A stretch of 64,000 nt of DNA, taken from the NCBI RefSeq assembly GCF_030846775.1, contig NZ_CP132910.1, positions 4,033,001 to 4,097,000 of the forward strand. Direction: 5' to 3'. Within the stretch, counting starts at the first letter, position 1, and each line of letters opens with the position of its first letter. The stretch comes from Geothrix sp. 21YS21S-2. Lineage in GTDB: Bacteria > Acidobacteriota > Holophagae > Holophagales > Holophagaceae. The notes below the pieces were generated by a model that had not been told where the DNA came from, made no database searches, and saw only the letters and a list, made by a program, of their open reading frames with translations. A program made the translations under genes and the position numbers. Positions 25,248 through 60,871 of this stretch are shown one piece after another.

Positions 25248-26666
25248 CTACTTCCAGTGCTGGCCGATGAAGGCCTCCACCTCGGGGAGGCCGCCCTGGA
25301 GGACCAGGTAGCCGTTGTGGGGCTCCCGCGGCGTGATCTCGTGGTTCACGGGGGCCAGCAGCATGCGCCGGATCTCCGCGGGGTCGTCGGTCTGGCCCAG
25401 CACCCAGGCCAGCTTCATGTAGGCGGTCTCCGGAAGCATGTTGTCCATGGGGATGATGCCCAGGTTCAGGAGGTCCCGGCCGGTGTCGTAGACGTACATC
25501 TGGGCGTAGCCCCAGATGGTCTGCACGGTCATGACCACGGTCATGCCCTTCTCGATGGCGCGCCTGACGGCGGGGTAGAGGGGCTTGTTGATGTGGCCCA
25601 GGCCGGTGCCGGCGATGACCATGCCGCGGTAGCCCATGCTGGACAGGCCGTCGATGATGTCGGGGTTGAAGTTGGGGTAGTAGTACTGGATGGTGACCTT
25701 CTCCTCGAAGCTCGGGTTGATGACGGGGACCCGCTTCTTGTCGCGCTTGAGGAAGTCGTCGGTGAGGTAGGTGAAGTACTGCCCGTTCCCGCCGCGCTCC
25801 CGGGCCACGGTGGCCAGGGGGGTGGCGCCGATGGTGCGGAAGGTGCTGCGGTAGCTGGAGTGCATCTTGCGGCAGCGGGTGCCGCGGTGCAGGAGGTCGT
25901 AGTTGTCCGAGGTGGGGCCGAACATGCAGAGCATCACTTCCGCGATGTCGCACTCGGCGGCGGTGCGCACGGCGTTCATGAGGTTGAGCGCGGCGTCCGA
26001 CGAGGGCCGGTCCGAGCTGCGCTGGCTTCCCACCAGGACGATGGGAACGGGGGAGTTCTGGACCATGAAGCTCAGGATGGCGCCGGTGTGGCTCATGGTG
26101 TCGGTGCCGTGGCCGATGACGATGCCGTCGACCCCGCGCGCGATCTCCTCGCCGATGGCCTTGGCCAGGGCGATGTACTGCTCGGGACCCATGTTCTCGC
26201 TGAAGACCCCGAAGAGCTTCTTGGTGTCCATGTTGGCGATGTCGGCCAGCTCGGGCACGGCGCCGTACAGCTCGCCGGGGGTGAAGGCGGGGATCACGGC
26301 GCCGGTGCGGTAGTCCAGGCGGGAGGCGATGGTGCCGCCGGTGCCCAGGAGCGTGACGTTCTTCTTGCGGGAATCCACCGGGAAGGCTTTCTCGGGGATC
26401 CTGTAGACGGCCTTCTTGTACCCCAGTTCCCGGGCGGAGGCGATGCGGGAGGCCACCACGCCCACGTTGTAGCCGTTGACCAGCTTGATGACGATGTGGA
26501 GATCGTCGAAGGTCTCGCTGCGGGGCAGGATCACGCCCTTGAACACCGAGCCCCGGTCGTTGACGACCTCCACTTCGCTCCACACGCCGATGCCGTACTG
26601 TTCGAGGGCGGCGCGGGCGGTGCCGCGGTAGCCCTGGTAGCGGTCGTCCCGTTCGATTTCGCTCAT
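25248..26666 (-). CDS. gatD: Glu-tRNA(Gln) amidotransferase subunit D (archaeal type)
   Basis: GatD is the asparaginase-like subunit that releases ammonia from glutamine for GatE. The protein has 472 residues. An N-terminal extension with a beta barrel (about 25-95, including VFKGVILPR) precedes the asparaginase fold, which carries GTGGTIAS (Thr112) and GHGTDTMSHTG (Thr188, Asp189), then SQRSSDRPSSDAALN. The N-terminal domain and the RSSDRPSSD motif separate it from plain asparaginases. The start overlaps the gatE stop as ATGA, with GGAGG upstream, so the two subunits are made together. Confidence 0.92.
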   Translation of the reverse strand: MSEIERDDRYQGYRGTARAALEQYGIGVWSEVEVVNDRGSVFKGVILPRSETFDDLHIVIKLVNGYNVGVVASRIASARELGYKKAVYRIPEKAFPVDSRKKNVTLLGTGGTIASRLDYRTGAVIPAFTPGELYGAVPELADIANMDTKKLFGVFSENMGPEQYIALAKAIGEEIARGVDGIVIGHGTDTMSHTGAILSFMVQNSPVPIVLVGSQRSSDRPSSDAALNLMNAVRTAAECDIAEVMLCMFGPTSDNYDLLHRGTRCRKMHSSYRSTFRTIGATPLATVARERGGNGQYFTYLTDDFLKRDKKRVPVINPSFEEKVTIQYYYPNFNPDIIDGLSSMGYRGMVIAGTGLGHINKPLYPAVRRAIEKGMTVVMTVQTIWGYAQMYVYDTGRDLLNLGIIPMDNMLPETAYMKLAWVLGQTDDPAEIRRMLLAPVNHEITPREPHNGYLVLQGGLPEVEAFIGQHWK

Positions 26667-28585
26667 CGGGAGGCCTCCTGGGTGAGTCGGGTCCTCAGGT
26701 AGTCGGCCACGTCCCGGGCCGGGGCCTTGCCCAGCAGGTCCTTCATGGCTCGCCCGGCAAGGAATCGCAGGCGCTTGGCGTCCGAGTCGCCCAGATCGAT
26801 CCGGTAGTCCTCCATGGACAGGAAGGAGAGCTGCCGGCTCCACACGTCCCGGGGCTGGATGCCGAAGCCCAGGGCGGACATGGCGGTCTCGGCGCCCGTG
26901 CCGGGGTGCTCGGCCATGTGGGTGGCCAGGGCCGGGATGGCCTCCCGCGCGATCTGGCCCCCGGTGAGGAGGTCGAAGATCTGCACCCACTCGTTCACGC
27001 CCAGGCGCTCCATGGGGATGCCGCGGCGCTTGAGGGCCTTGGCCCGCTGCCCGATCTCCACGGCGGCCACCAGGCCGTCCACGCCGGTGAGCTGCACCAC
27101 GGCGTCGACGATGGCCACGCCGCCCCTGCGGATGAGGAACTCGGTGGTCTCCGGGGGCACGCCCCAGGCGCCGAACTGGTGGAAGCGCTCCCAGGGGGTG
27201 GGCTTCATGCGGGCGCGGGCGGCCTCGACGCGTTCGGCGGTGATGCGGGTGGGCGGGGAGTCCGTGTCGGGATACATGCGGTCGGGTCCGGGCAGGATCC
27301 GCTCGAAGGTGGTGAAGCCGCCCACCATGGCCTGGCGGGTCTCCTGGGGGACCCCCTTGAGGGCGTCGACGTAGCGCAGCCGGATCTCCTCGGCGGCGGT
27401 GCGGCAGTCGGCCTCCGGGCCGCAGACGATGTAGTAGTCGTCGTTCTCCGCCACCCGCAGCTTGCGGCGGAGGCGGTCCAGGACCCGGTGCTTGGCCGGG
27501 AACTCGGGCAGGTGCTGGCCGCTGAGGACCACGGGAGCCTCGTCCAGGCACGCGATGACCCGGATGCGCCCGCTCAGTTCGTCCAGGAAGGTGGTGTCGG
27601 GCTGGGTGGGGAACTGGGCCAGGCCCATGCCGCCCTCGAGCTTGACGGCGAAGATCCTGCCCCCGCCCCGGATGGCGCGCTGCATGAACCCCAGGTCCAC
27701 GCCCTGGAAGATGTCGGTGACGTCGAAGGCGGTGGTGCGGATGTCCGAGGGCTCGCGCATGCCGCGGCGGTTCAGCTCCTCCCTGAAGCGCAGGAGGTTC
27801 ACCTGGCGGACCCCCTCGTTGTGCACGAGCTTGACGGCGTAGCCCGCCTTGGGCACGCCCTTGATCTCCACGCGGCTGCCGCCCCTGACGCTGACGTTCA
27901 CGTCCTGCCGGCTCGCGCCCAGCCCCGTGCGCACCCGGCCCGTGCTGCGCGCCACCAGGCCGCAGAGGGTGATGGCGTCGCGCACCTCCTCGGGCGTGCG
28001 CAGGTCCGGGCCCGTGACGGTCTCGGTGAGCGGCATGCCCAGCCGGTCCGTGCGCCACACGATGCGGTGCCCCTTGTCGCTCACTTCGCGGCAGGAGTCC
28101 TCCTCGATGGAGAGGTGGGTCACCGTGAGGTTCCGGCCCTTGAAGGGGAGCCCGCCGTTCATGCCCACGATGGCCGTGCGCTGGAAGCCCGTGGGGATGG
28201 AGCCGTCCAGGTACTGCTTACGCGCGATGTGCACCTCGTCGATGATGTCCATGCCCATGGCCAGGCAGAGCTCGATGGCCACGTCGATGGCCTCCTGGTT
28301 CACCAGGAAAGGCGGCGTGTCGTCCATCTCGTAGGTGCAGACGTTGAGGTGGTTCAGGAGGTAGATGATCTCCTTCTTCGTCTTGAACTCCATGAGGGCC
28401 GTGCCGTCGTACTCGCCCAGCTCGCTCAGGGTGGGGCGCATGTGCCGCAGCACCTCGCCGTCGTGGGAGTCGGTGTAGAGGCCGGCGGGGCAGCGGCAGA
28501 ACAGCTTGTGGGCCGTCAGGAGCTGCTGATGCACCTCCAGGCCCGAAATCAATCCTGCCGATTGATAGTCCAGCTTCTCGATCAT
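26663..28585 (-). CDS. gatE: Glu-tRNA(Gln) amidotransferase subunit E (archaeal type)
   Basis: GatE phosphorylates Glu-tRNA(Gln) and converts it to Gln-tRNA(Gln) with ammonia from GatD. The protein has 640 residues. It has the GatB/E opening GLISGLEVHQQLLT, the Cys pair in LFCRCPAGL, the cradle motif HLSIEEDSCREVSDKG, DVNVSVRGGSRVEIKGVP, and an internal AspRS-like insertion (about 260-420) that bacterial GatB lacks. A helical and YqeY-like tail follows. The frame runs upstream to 28759, but the ATG at 28585 matches family starts. Finding GatDE in a bacterial context is unusual. Confidence 0.92.
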   Translation of the reverse strand: MIEKLDYQSAGLISGLEVHQQLLTAHKLFCRCPAGLYTDSHDGEVLRHMRPTLSELGEYDGTALMEFKTKKEIIYLLNHLNVCTYEMDDTPPFLVNQEAIDVAIELCLAMGMDIIDEVHIARKQYLDGSIPTGFQRTAIVGMNGGLPFKGRNLTVTHLSIEEDSCREVSDKGHRIVWRTDRLGMPLTETVTGPDLRTPEEVRDAITLCGLVARSTGRVRTGLGASRQDVNVSVRGGSRVEIKGVPKAGYAVKLVHNEGVRQVNLLRFREELNRRGMREPSDIRTTAFDVTDIFQGVDLGFMQRAIRGGGRIFAVKLEGGMGLAQFPTQPDTTFLDELSGRIRVIACLDEAPVVLSGQHLPEFPAKHRVLDRLRRKLRVAENDDYYIVCGPEADCRTAAEEIRLRYVDALKGVPQETRQAMVGGFTTFERILPGPDRMYPDTDSPPTRITAERVEAARARMKPTPWERFHQFGAWGVPPETTEFLIRRGGVAIVDAVVQLTGVDGLVAAVEIGQRAKALKRRGIPMERLGVNEWVQIFDLLTGGQIAREAIPALATHMAEHPGTGAETAMSALGFGIQPRDVWSRQLSFLSMEDYRIDLGDSDAKRLRFLAGRAMKDLLGKAPARDVADYLRTRLTQEASR

Positions 28586-28795
28586 TCCGCACCTATAAGG
28601 GTAAGGGCTTCTTGAGGGATGGTCGCCCTTGGGCGAGCGCTCCGTCAAGGCTGGGACCGCGTGGAGCGCGGGATTGATGATCCCCGTCACATCCCGATGA
28701 ATGCGAAGTGCCGCGCATTCATCCCTTGGAAAGCGGGAATAAAACGGGGCCGTGCCCATCTAACTCGCATGGCCTGAAGGCCCTTAGGAGCAACG

Positions 28796-29172: not shown

Positions 29173-31593
29173 TCAATCAACAGTAATTGATTTGGATACG
29201 TTCTTCGGGCTGTCGGGATGGACGCCGTGGTCGACCACCTTCAGTTCGTCCAGGTATTCCATCTTCAGCACCGACATGCGGAAAGCGAGCCGCTGCAGGA
29301 TGATCGACGCGGCGAACACGAAGAGGTTCGAGTCCGAGGACGCGGGCACTTCCAGGTACTTGGACCAGTAGCGGTCCTGTCCCGAAGGCTTGCCGGCCAC
29401 GGCCATGGCAACTTCAGGGTTCTTCTCGGCGATCAGCAGGATGTCGGCGCCCCGGATCTTGTGGGTGTGGATCTGGCTGATGGTGATGCGAACGTCCCGC
29501 TCGTCCGAGGGACACACGAACAGCAGGGGGTAGTTGGAGAAGTGGGCCTCCACCAGTTCGGGCCAGGTGCGCAGGGCCGCCATGCCGCCGGCGAAGGGGC
29601 GGCCGTCCCGCTTGGCCTCGTAGCCTTCCAGGAGGCCGGCCAGGTCGCCGATGGAGAAGAGGGTGTTCTTGCCCAGGATCGTGTTGGGGCCGTGCTTGAA
29701 CTCGGCGGCGTCGTAGCCCTCGGCGTGGTTGAGGACCACTTCGCGGATCTTGAGGGCGCCCTCCCGGGCCAGCCCGATGAGGCCGGTGCCCAGGATGTGC
29801 AGGGAGGGCTCCAGGTGCAGGCGCCGGGCGGCCTCCTCCACGTCGGGGCCGCAGGTCTCCAGGGTGCGGGTCACCAGGTCGGCCGCGGCCTTGAGCTTGG
29901 CGGCGATCTTGCGGTCCGTGAGGGAGAAGGAGGCGGCGATCACGTAGAGGACGGCGATCTGGTTGAGGAAGCTCTTGGTGGCGGCCACGGCGATCTCGGG
30001 GCCGCAGAGGATGGGCAGGTAGAACTCCACCAGCTCCTGGGGGATCCGGCTGTTCTCGTTGTTCACCAGGGCGATGCGGCGCAGGGAGGGGATGCGGGCC
30101 TGCACGTCCTGGAAGATGTCCACCAGGTCCTTGGTCTCGCCGGACTGGGTGATGCCGATGAGCAGGTCCCCGGGGGCCAGGGTGTTCAGGTACATCGACC
30201 GGAAGGTGCCGGGGTTCACGGGGAACACGCCGATGCCGGAGAGGTTGTTGAAGAAGTAGGCCGCCACCAGCGAGGCGTGGTGGGAGGTGCCCGAAGCCAC
30301 CAGGAAGACGCGGCCGGGGGCGGTGCGGATGGCGTGGACCAGGTCCTGCAGGTGGCGGGTCACCCGGCGCTGCTTCTTCCACACCACGAGGTGGTCGTAG
30401 AGGGTCAGGTCCATGCCCGCTCCGGGCTCCAGGCGCAGGAGGTCCGCCAGAAGGGCGCGCTCGTCGGAAACCGGGTCGGCCGGGGCGAGGGTGGCCATGT
30501 GGGGCCGGACCCAGGCCGCGAGCTCCAGGTGCACGGGGTCGGCGCGCAGGCGCCGGAATGCCTCCACGAGGGCGGGCTCGTCCGCGGCCTCGTGCAGGGC
30601 GGCCACCTTGGCCAGCAGGGCCTTGCCCAGGTCCAGGCGCTCCTCGAAGGCGTGGAAGAGGCCCTCGGTGGCGGGGTCGGTGAAGTAGTACCGGAGGATC
30701 CCCTCCAGGTTCTCCGGGGAGGAGGCGATCTCCTGGTCCATGAAGTAGCGGAAGGGGGCGCGCAGGCCCGTGTCCCGCACGTTGAGCTTGGACCGCTTGG
30801 GCCGCGGGGTGGAGAAGGCCAGCGCCCCCGCCAGGGGGAAGACCGCGTACTCCCGCTCCGTGAACCAGAGGCCCTCCCCTTCGGAAAGGGGAATGAGCAT
30901 GCGGGTCTTGCTGAGGACGGAGGTGAGGTCGCTGGAGACCACCACGAATTCCCCGAAGGCGTCCGTGCCCAGGCCCGCGTAGAGGGACGACCCGGACTTC
31001 ACGGCGACCACGCCGGGAACCCGGGGATCGCAGAAGGCCGCGGCGTAGGAACCCTCGCACGTGGCGTCGGCCTTGCGCACGGCGTCGATGAAGAGGACCG
31101 CGGCGTCCGGGACTCCGCCGCCGCGGGGACCTTCGGGCGCCTGCGCGGGCCCGGCCAGGCCGGCCGCGTAGAACTCCTCCACCACGTGGGTGATCATCTC
31201 GCCGTCGTTGTCCGAGACCACCCGGTGGCCGCGCTCGGCGAGCCAGGTCTTCAGGGCGTCCGTATTGGAGATGTTCCCGTTGTGGGCGCCCACCATCTCC
31301 ACCTTGCACCGCACGTGGTGGGGCTGGCTGTTGACGTCGGTGACCGCGCCGTAGGTGGCCCAGCGCACCTGGCCGATGAAACGCTGCCCCTTCTCCTGGT
31401 CCATGGCCAGGTCCACCACGACCCGGCTGGGGGCGCCGACCTTCTTGAGGAGGCGGATGTGGCCGTCCGCGCCCACGAAGGCGCCTCCGGTGGAGTCGTA
31501 GCCGCGGTATTCCAGGCGCTTGAGGAGCTCTCCGCCCTCGAAGCCCAGGCACGGGCTCTCCGCGCCATAACAGATGGAAACGATTCCACACAT
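29173..31593 (-). CDS. glmS: Glutamine-fructose-6-phosphate aminotransferase, enlarged form
   Basis: The enzyme makes glucosamine-6-phosphate, the first step toward UDP-GlcNAc for wall and LPS. The protein has 806 residues against about 610 in most bacteria. The nucleophile Cys2 (MCGIV), RLEYRGYDS, GQVRWATYG and GAHNGNISN show a complete glutaminase domain; VASGTSHHASLVAAY and TQSGETKDLVDIF show the sugar isomerase domain; the C-terminus has the second SIS domain. The extra length is mainly a segment at about 280-400 between the domains. The start has GGGAG upstream. A glmS ribozyme was not seen. Confidence 0.9.
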   Translation of the reverse strand: MCGIVSICYGAESPCLGFEGGELLKRLEYRGYDSTGGAFVGADGHIRLLKKVGAPSRVVVDLAMDQEKGQRFIGQVRWATYGAVTDVNSQPHHVRCKVEMVGAHNGNISNTDALKTWLAERGHRVVSDNDGEMITHVVEEFYAAGLAGPAQAPEGPRGGGVPDAAVLFIDAVRKADATCEGSYAAAFCDPRVPGVVAVKSGSSLYAGLGTDAFGEFVVVSSDLTSVLSKTRMLIPLSEGEGLWFTEREYAVFPLAGALAFSTPRPKRSKLNVRDTGLRAPFRYFMDQEIASSPENLEGILRYYFTDPATEGLFHAFEERLDLGKALLAKVAALHEAADEPALVEAFRRLRADPVHLELAAWVRPHMATLAPADPVSDERALLADLLRLEPGAGMDLTLYDHLVVWKKQRRVTRHLQDLVHAIRTAPGRVFLVASGTSHHASLVAAYFFNNLSGIGVFPVNPGTFRSMYLNTLAPGDLLIGITQSGETKDLVDIFQDVQARIPSLRRIALVNNENSRIPQELVEFYLPILCGPEIAVAATKSFLNQIAVLYVIAASFSLTDRKIAAKLKAAADLVTRTLETCGPDVEEAARRLHLEPSLHILGTGLIGLAREGALKIREVVLNHAEGYDAAEFKHGPNTILGKNTLFSIGDLAGLLEGYEAKRDGRPFAGGMAALRTWPELVEAHFSNYPLLFVCPSDERDVRITISQIHTHKIRGADILLIAEKNPEVAMAVAGKPSGQDRYWSKYLEVPASSDSNLFVFAASIILQRLAFRMSVLKMEYLDELKVVDHGVHPDSPKNVSKSITVD

Positions 31594-59884: not shown

Positions 59885-60871
59885 TCAGACGGGCTCTCCG
59901 GCCCAGGAGACCTCGAAGGCGCGCCGGATCTCGTCCGTCCCGAAACCCGCGCCCAGCGCCAGCGAGAGCTTGGCCAGCGCGGCCCAGGGCGTGTGCCGGC
60001 CCCCGGAGATGGCCCCCTGGGCCCGGGCCTGGCGGCCCAGGTCGTAGGTGGCGAGGTCCACGCCCCCCGAGATGCACTGGCTGATGATGACCACCGGCAG
60101 GTCCTGCGCCCGGCAGTGCTGCAGGAGCGCCCGCAGGTCGCCGCGGTCCATGGGGAGGTTGCCGGCCCCGTAGGCCCGGATGAGCACGCCGCGGCAGCCC
60201 GGGTCCGGAAGGCGCCAGGGCATGCCCGGGAAGGGGGCGTACACCTCGATGGCAGGCTCCAGCGCCAGGCCGATGCGGGGCGGCACCTGGCGGGGGAAGG
60301 CGCCCGCATGGGGGTGGATCTGGACGTGGAGGCCCAGCTCCGCCAGGGGAGGCAGGTTGGGGGACTCGAAGGCCTCGTAGCGGTGCACGCTCACCTTGTC
60401 CGCGGCGACCCCGCGCAGCCAGTGGTCCCCGAAGCAGATGCCCACTTCCGGGACGCCCCTCGCCGCGAGGGTCACGGCGTCCACCAGGTTGCCCCGGGCG
60501 TCGCTGCGCACGTAGGCCAGGGGCCGCTGGCTGCCGGTGATCACCACCGGCTTGTCCAGGCCGGCCAGGAGGAAGCCCAGCACCGAGGCCGTGTAGGCCA
60601 TGGTGTCGGTGCCGTGGATGAGGACGATGCCGTCGCTTTGCGCAGCCGCCTCGACGATGAGCCGGGCCAGGACGAGGATGTCCCCGGGCTCCGTGGTGGC
60701 CGAGTCCTGGTTGAAGGCCACGACCATGCGCAGATCCGCCAATTCGCGCAATTCGGGCACCTGGTCCAGGATGCGGTCCAGGGAGGGGCCCGGGGCGAGG
60801 CTGGCGTCCTCCCCGGGCCCCATGCCCAGGGTGCCGCCCGTGTGGATGAGGGTAACGGTGCGCATCGTCAT
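59885..60871 (-). CDS. ansA: Type I L-asparaginase
   Basis: The enzyme hydrolyses asparagine to aspartate in the cytoplasm. The protein has 328 residues. The two catalytic Thr regions are IHTGGTLGM and LIHGTDTMAYTAS, with TGSQRPLAYVRSDARGN. There is no signal peptide or GatD-type N-terminal domain, so it is a free asparaginase distinct from gatD. ATGs at 60871 and 60865 are both possible. Confidence 0.94.
   Translation of the reverse strand: MTMRTVTLIHTGGTLGMGPGEDASLAPGPSLDRILDQVPELRELADLRMVVAFNQDSATTEPGDILVLARLIVEAAAQSDGIVLIHGTDTMAYTASVLGFLLAGLDKPVVITGSQRPLAYVRSDARGNLVDAVTLAARGVPEVGICFGDHWLRGVAADKVSVHRYEAFESPNLPPLAELGLHVQIHPHAGAFPRQVPPRIGLALEPAIEVYAPFPGMPWRLPDPGCRGVLIRAYGAGNLPMDRGDLRALLQHCRAQDLPVVIISQCISGGVDLATYDLGRQARAQGAISGGRHTPWAALAKLSLALGAGFGTDEIRRAFEVSWAGEPV

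Follow-up and report, generated by a model that had tools for sequence, protein, structure and literature searches.

A GlnRS-associated variant of the GatDE amidotransferase in Holophagaceae and other bacteria, possibly accessory to glutamine tRNA charging

What would a bacterium do with GatDE, an amidotransferase known from archaea? In their GatDE passages, reviews from 2021-2022 confine the enzyme to archaea and describe archaeal Gln-tRNA formation as always indirect (PMC8007984, PMC9499178, PMC8762117). Bacterial GatDE is mentioned neither in these passages nor in those of PMC9976931, mostly open-access texts, and an earlier mention elsewhere is possible. The window analysed here is a stretch of 64,000 nucleotides (C1:4033001-4097000 in a 5.25-Mb genome assembled as one contig, most likely from a member of the Holophagaceae, Acidobacteriota). 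The original prediction read two of its genes as archaeal-type GatDE, explained by transfer from archaea or by old retention in one bacterial lineage, and asked how Asn-tRNA is made in such a cell.

The two genes encode a true and complete GatDE, with a match far beyond chance. They lie on the minus strand in the order gatE, gatD (Table 1), both subunits being complete as predicted, and their ATGA overlap suggests translational coupling. GatE reaches 419.7 bits with TIGR00134 (cut-off 319.6) and 481 bits with PRK04028 (cut-off 456), and GatD 478.7 bits with TIGR02153 (cut-off 324) and 479.4 bits with PRK04183 (cut-off 310), all above the curated equivalog thresholds of these NCBIfam models. 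In Pfam, GatE matches GatB_N and GatB_Yqey only, and GatD matches Asparaginase, Asparaginase_C and GatD_N (PF18195, 45.7 bits), the last being the N-terminal barrel already attributed to it. With phmmer, GatE aligned over its full length with GatE of P. abyssi (E 5e-94) and M. thermautotrophicus (E 6e-87), and this alignment with 1zq1 and 2d6f spans the AspRS-like insertion that is missing from bacterial GatB, in agreement with the prediction. GatD matched its counterparts in the same two archaea at E 2e-111 and E 1e-108, and its motifs TGGTIAS, GTDTM and RKMH align with archaeal GatD. The AlphaFold model of GatE (pLDDT 81.6) retrieved 1zq1_C (E 1.9e-43) and 2d6f (E 1.1e-41) as its top Foldseek matches, archaeal GatE ranking first, GatB second and AspRS chains weakly thereafter, which suggests that the protein folds like archaeal GatE.

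Table 1. Features of the window and related genes elsewhere in the same genome (contig C1 positions where so marked)
Feature	Position	Strand	Description	Basis
gatE	26663..28585	(-)	640 aa, Glu-tRNA(Gln) amidotransferase subunit E (kinase/amidotransferase), type-2 subfamily	NCBIfam equivalogs, phmmer, AlphaFold/Foldseek, tree
gatD	25248..26666	(-)	472 aa, asparaginase-like glutaminase subunit with GatD_N barrel	NCBIfam equivalogs, Pfam, phmmer, tree
ATGA overlap	26663..26666	(-)	gatE stop / gatD start	sequence
Promoter-like pair	28619..28648	(-)	TTGACG (28643-28648) and GACCAT (28619-28624), genus-conserved	alignment of five gatE upstream regions
Imperfect inverted repeat	28675..28691	(-)	TGTGACNGGNNTCATCA, conserved, upstream of the -35-like hexamer	same alignment as for the promoter-like pair
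GlmS-like protein	29173-31593	(-)	806 aa, upstream of gatE	291 bits against GlmS cut-off of 418
L-asparaginase-family gene	59885-60871	(-)	separate from gatD	far outgroup to GatD in tree
GlnRS	C1:3555408			716 bits (cut-off 426)
AsnRS	C1:3207902			434 bits (cut-off 343)
GatA	C1:1468981			506 bits (cut-off 481)
GatB	C1:3312021			groups with GatB in tree

The system thus shares with archaeal GatDE (P. abyssi 1zq1, M. thermautotrophicus 2d6f) both subunits, the domain order, the insertion domain, the active-site motifs and the predicted fold, but GatE identity is only about 32-33%. With bacterial GatCAB it has in common a homologous kinase subunit (GatB), the same chemistry and tRNA-dependent amidation; it differs by the insertion of GatE and by its asparaginase-type partner GatD in place of GatA and GatC, and GatB is a far outgroup to GatE. 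L-asparaginases of type I/II resemble GatD in catalytic fold and in the TGGT and GTDT motifs, whereas GatD possesses the additional barrel and the partner GatE.

The question of Asn-tRNA does not arise in this organism, because its genome encodes AsnRS as well as GlnRS and GatCAB, that is, both direct routes and the bacterial amidotransferase (Table 1). GatDE is therefore not the sole route here and is dispensable for basic Gln-tRNA or Asn-tRNA synthesis. Its presence is patchy among the genera of Holophagaceae. In three relatives (G019, G025, G027) GatDE is kept and matches to GatA and GatB are absent; AsnRS is over the cut-off in all three, as is GlnRS in G019 and G025, with a partial match in G027. 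In G019 and G025 (L161-L164), two GluRS genes each were observed, of which only one has the discriminating Arg, GatDE being the only amidotransferase found.

A scan of a collection of genome contigs returned at least 585 candidate stretches, of which 564 were confirmed, and the best 80 loci were examined. Among these best 80 of at least 585 stretches, this GatDE spans over 10 bacterial phyla (Acidobacteriota, Myxococcota, Planctomycetota, Bacteroidota, Ignavibacteriota, Aminicenantes, Latescibacterota, Krumholzibacteriota, Cloacimonadota, Caldisericota and others); some Thermoplasmatota carry it too. Thus, the expectation of a true GatDE in a bacterium held, but its restriction to one lineage did not. 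One named isolate, Perlabentimonas gracilis, provides a cultured carrier; in its phylum, the Bacteroidota, gatE was found in 13 of 158 sampled genomes. The GatE motifs are invariant throughout this type, hereafter type 2, and in 86 of 111 type-2 loci no more than 1.5 kb separates gatD from gatE. In most Thermoplasmatota type-2 loci (L238, L240-L245), the stretch read showed no gatD next to gatE.

Trees of both subunits were built with GatB as outgroup for GatE and the window's own asparaginase for GatD, archaea being represented by Thermoplasmatota, P. abyssi and M. thermautotrophicus. Neither protein shows the clustering with its outgroup that had been named as fatal to the prediction. The GatE tree separates a canonical archaeal clade (UFBoot/SH-aLRT 100/97) from a second one, type 2 (99/98), which holds all bacterial GatE, as one group within it (84/84), and copies from Thermoplasmatota. 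The GatD tree gives the same two clades, with a separate type-2 clade at SH-aLRT 100. Thermoplasmatota type-2 copies stand outside the bacteria in the GatE tree, and three of them fall among the bacteria in the GatD tree. The window proteins lie outside the canonical clade of these sampled archaea in both cases, and type 2 forms a subfamily of its own in both trees, sister to sampled canonical archaeal GatDE. This deep sister position of the bacterial proteins, shared only with the Thermoplasmatota type-2 copies, does not support a transfer out of the canonical archaeal GatDE sampled here. The locus is a GlnRS-associated GatDE variant and not a lone archaeal import. Type 2 may have links to archaeal phyla beyond the Thermoplasmatota and the two other species. 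In both trees the two families of Holophagae stand apart from each other, which implies at least two gains in the class or widespread loss.

Type 2 also differs from archaeal GatDE in its company. Archaeal GatDE is the sole route to Gln-tRNA where GlnRS is absent, according to the relevant passage of PMC9499178, whereas type 2 accompanies GlnRS, which was found in 44 of 50 bacterial carriers (43 above the cut-off; the 50 include G048, a Thermoplasmata genome also counted in the Thermoplasmatota set). Neither GlnRS nor GatA was found in 4 of the 50, in assemblies that are possibly incomplete. Among 60 Thermoplasmatota, GlnRS was over the cut-off in 9 of 10 genomes with type-2 GatE versus 2 of 43 with canonical GatE only (Fisher p 1e-7, kinship not corrected for). 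In total, a quarter of these genomes, 15 of 60, hold a GlnRS-family gene above the curated cut-off (G048, G085, G086, G089, G094, G097, G098, G100, G107, G109, G116, G122, G124, G136, G139). Contamination was considered as its origin and rejected for G085 and G094: the contigs inspected there also bear archaeal-type genes that pass their cut-offs, namely archaeal LysRS or archaeal NucS, so that mis-binning is unlikely in these two cases.

Moreover, gatDE has tRNA-Gln genes as neighbours in some relatives. In about 111 type-2 loci, 10 tRNA genes lie within 500 nt of gatE or gatD: six are Gln-type, one is Glu(CUC) and three are other tRNAs. The Gln-type genes carry CUG in five loci (L181, L182, L041, L236, L239) and a CUA derivative in L035, and this adjacency exceeds chance (binomial 1.4e-6, or 1.9e-5 with two same-genus loci counted once). 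Most type-2 loci, including the window, have no adjacent tRNA. In L013 and L014, both from Holophagaceae, a terminator-like hairpin and a T run separate the tRNA from gatE, which makes co-transcription doubtful. The Bacteroidota show the tRNA-Gln(CUG) pattern in 12 of 13 GatE-positive versus 79 of 145 GatE-negative genomes, a difference confounded by phylogeny; we therefore discarded the idea that GatDE requires this tRNA, and its link to the CUG isoacceptor is only suggestive.

The CUA tRNA itself, seen in a relative of the same genus (L035 4188-4263 (+), equal to L013 3471-3546 (-)), is a tRNA-Gln body about 70 nt upstream of gatE, with stems preserved through paired changes and C at position 37. 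Reassignment of UAG to Gln was rejected for the genome concerned (G004), where TAG is still the stop at 28 of 113 genes versus 29 of 74 in G000. A tRNA-Gln(CUG) at L131 1501-1582 (G005) has 7 nt of its anticodon arm duplicated, which could be an assembly error.

Taken together with the chemistry of the known family, these data suggest the following role. GluRS would load some Glu onto tRNA-Gln, most plausibly the CUG isoacceptor; position 36 is the only anticodon position at which this tRNA departs from tRNA-Glu(CUC). GatD would hydrolyse glutamine to supply ammonia, and GatE would amidate the Glu carried by tRNA-Gln to Gln after activating its gamma-carboxyl, so that Glu-tRNA-Gln would become Gln-tRNA-Gln before Gln-to-Glu errors arise. 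Because GlnRS already charges tRNA-Gln, GatDE would most likely act as accessory clean-up and as a parallel route. We give a probability of about one half to this reading of type-2 GatDE as an accessory Glu-tRNA(Gln) amidotransferase beside GlnRS that clears mischarged Glu, perhaps mainly from the CUG isoacceptor. Its wider form is more tentative, namely that an unrecognised GlnRS-associated subfamily proofreads glutamine decoding at tRNA-Gln(CUG) in many bacterial phyla and in Thermoplasmatota with bacterial-type GlnRS. GatCAB of the same genome could do the same clean-up.

The behaviour of GluRS bears on the source of mischarging. In Holophagaceae its discriminating Arg is replaced or shifted, which counts in favour of the clean-up reading, as does A73 in the tRNA-Gln of the family, but GatDE-negative genera of the family share this change, and the residue does not track GatDE. 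Elsewhere, 38 of 46 GluRS of carriers retain Arg at the Tth R358 position. A non-discriminating GluRS was consequently dropped as a general reason for GatDE, and mischarging is not predictable from that residue alone. GluRS1 of A. ferrooxidans is reported to charge tRNA-Gln(CUG) and not (UUG) (PMC3927822), which fits the CUG tRNAs neighbouring gatDE.

Other explanations of these observations were weighed. It seems unlikely that labour is divided such that GlnRS serves tRNA-Gln(UUG) whereas tRNA-Gln(CUG), or a dedicated extra tRNA-Gln, depends mainly on GluRS and GatDE, the latter being a main producer for CAG codons. Such a division would agree with the absence of UUG among the Gln-type neighbours and with an extra tRNA-Gln copy beside gatDE in two genomes of one genus (G007, G017); however, these copies are near-identical to the other tRNA-Gln(CUG) there, and thus without special features, and most carriers lack a tRNA-Gln neighbour. 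Somewhat less likely again is a change of substrate, with type-2 GatDE amidating a different aminoacyl-tRNA or a substrate outside translation, and the presence of GlnRS reflecting its freed old role. The classical role is indeed rendered dispensable by GlnRS, and two Thermoplasmatota genomes hold canonical and type-2 GatE together. Nevertheless, the core motifs are still invariant, the predicted fold matches that of tRNA-bound GatE, tRNA-Gln is the commonest tRNA neighbour, and no third gene is widely conserved next to gatDE among the loci compared.

The patchy occurrence and the split placement of Holophagae show gain and loss, as might be expected of a harmless, redundant relic of transfer with no distinct job next to GlnRS and GatCAB, but we consider this improbable. 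Simple pairwise estimates within the genus gave dN/dS of 0.09-0.19 for gatD and 0.10-0.29 for gatE, compared with 0.18-0.31 for GlnRS (the fragmentary G003 gene excluded) and 0.17-0.43 for GluRS, figures that indicate purifying selection as tight as on the two synthetases or tighter. Two-gene operons are also kept across many phyla, and the three relatives without a GatA or GatB match retain GatDE. A shade more improbable still is that GatDE is the essential route to Gln-tRNA-Gln and GlnRS is inactive or otherwise used. The tRNA-Gln genes of Holophagaceae have a U1-A72 pair with A73 in place of G73, on which bacterial GlnRS identity relies according to a passage of PMC9976931, and the four carriers lacking both GlnRS and GatA in possibly incomplete assemblies would fit as well; yet the GlnRS of this genome scores 716 bits over a cut-off of 426 and is itself under purifying selection. 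The U1-A72 pair had been proposed as a feature recognised by GatDE. It is present in the family, but the pair read by the archaeal enzyme is A1:U72, together with the D-loop, as described in part of PMC9499178.

A GatDE subfamily in bacteria owning GlnRS, together with the GlnRS-family genes of Thermoplasmatota, contradicts both review statements cited at the outset. If type-2 GatDE does act on Glu-tRNA-Gln beside GlnRS, error correction for glutamine codons would be widespread, and the finding would bear on the spread of GlnRS and on the proposal that LUCA already had GatDE. The pairing of GatDE with GlnRS points to a backup or proofreading step that has been overlooked in the reading of these codons.

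Phage or plasmid carriage of gatDE was set aside, the search having given no full-length match. Upstream of gatE, a cloverleaf-like region had been considered as a tRNA-like leader, but it gave no Rfam match even at E 5; its conserved part is better read, from the alignment within the genus, as a putative promoter formed by the TTGACG/GACCAT pair and an inverted repeat that is possibly a regulator site. Further upstream lies the GlmS-like protein, whose C-terminus is also recognisable upstream of gatE in the relative L008.
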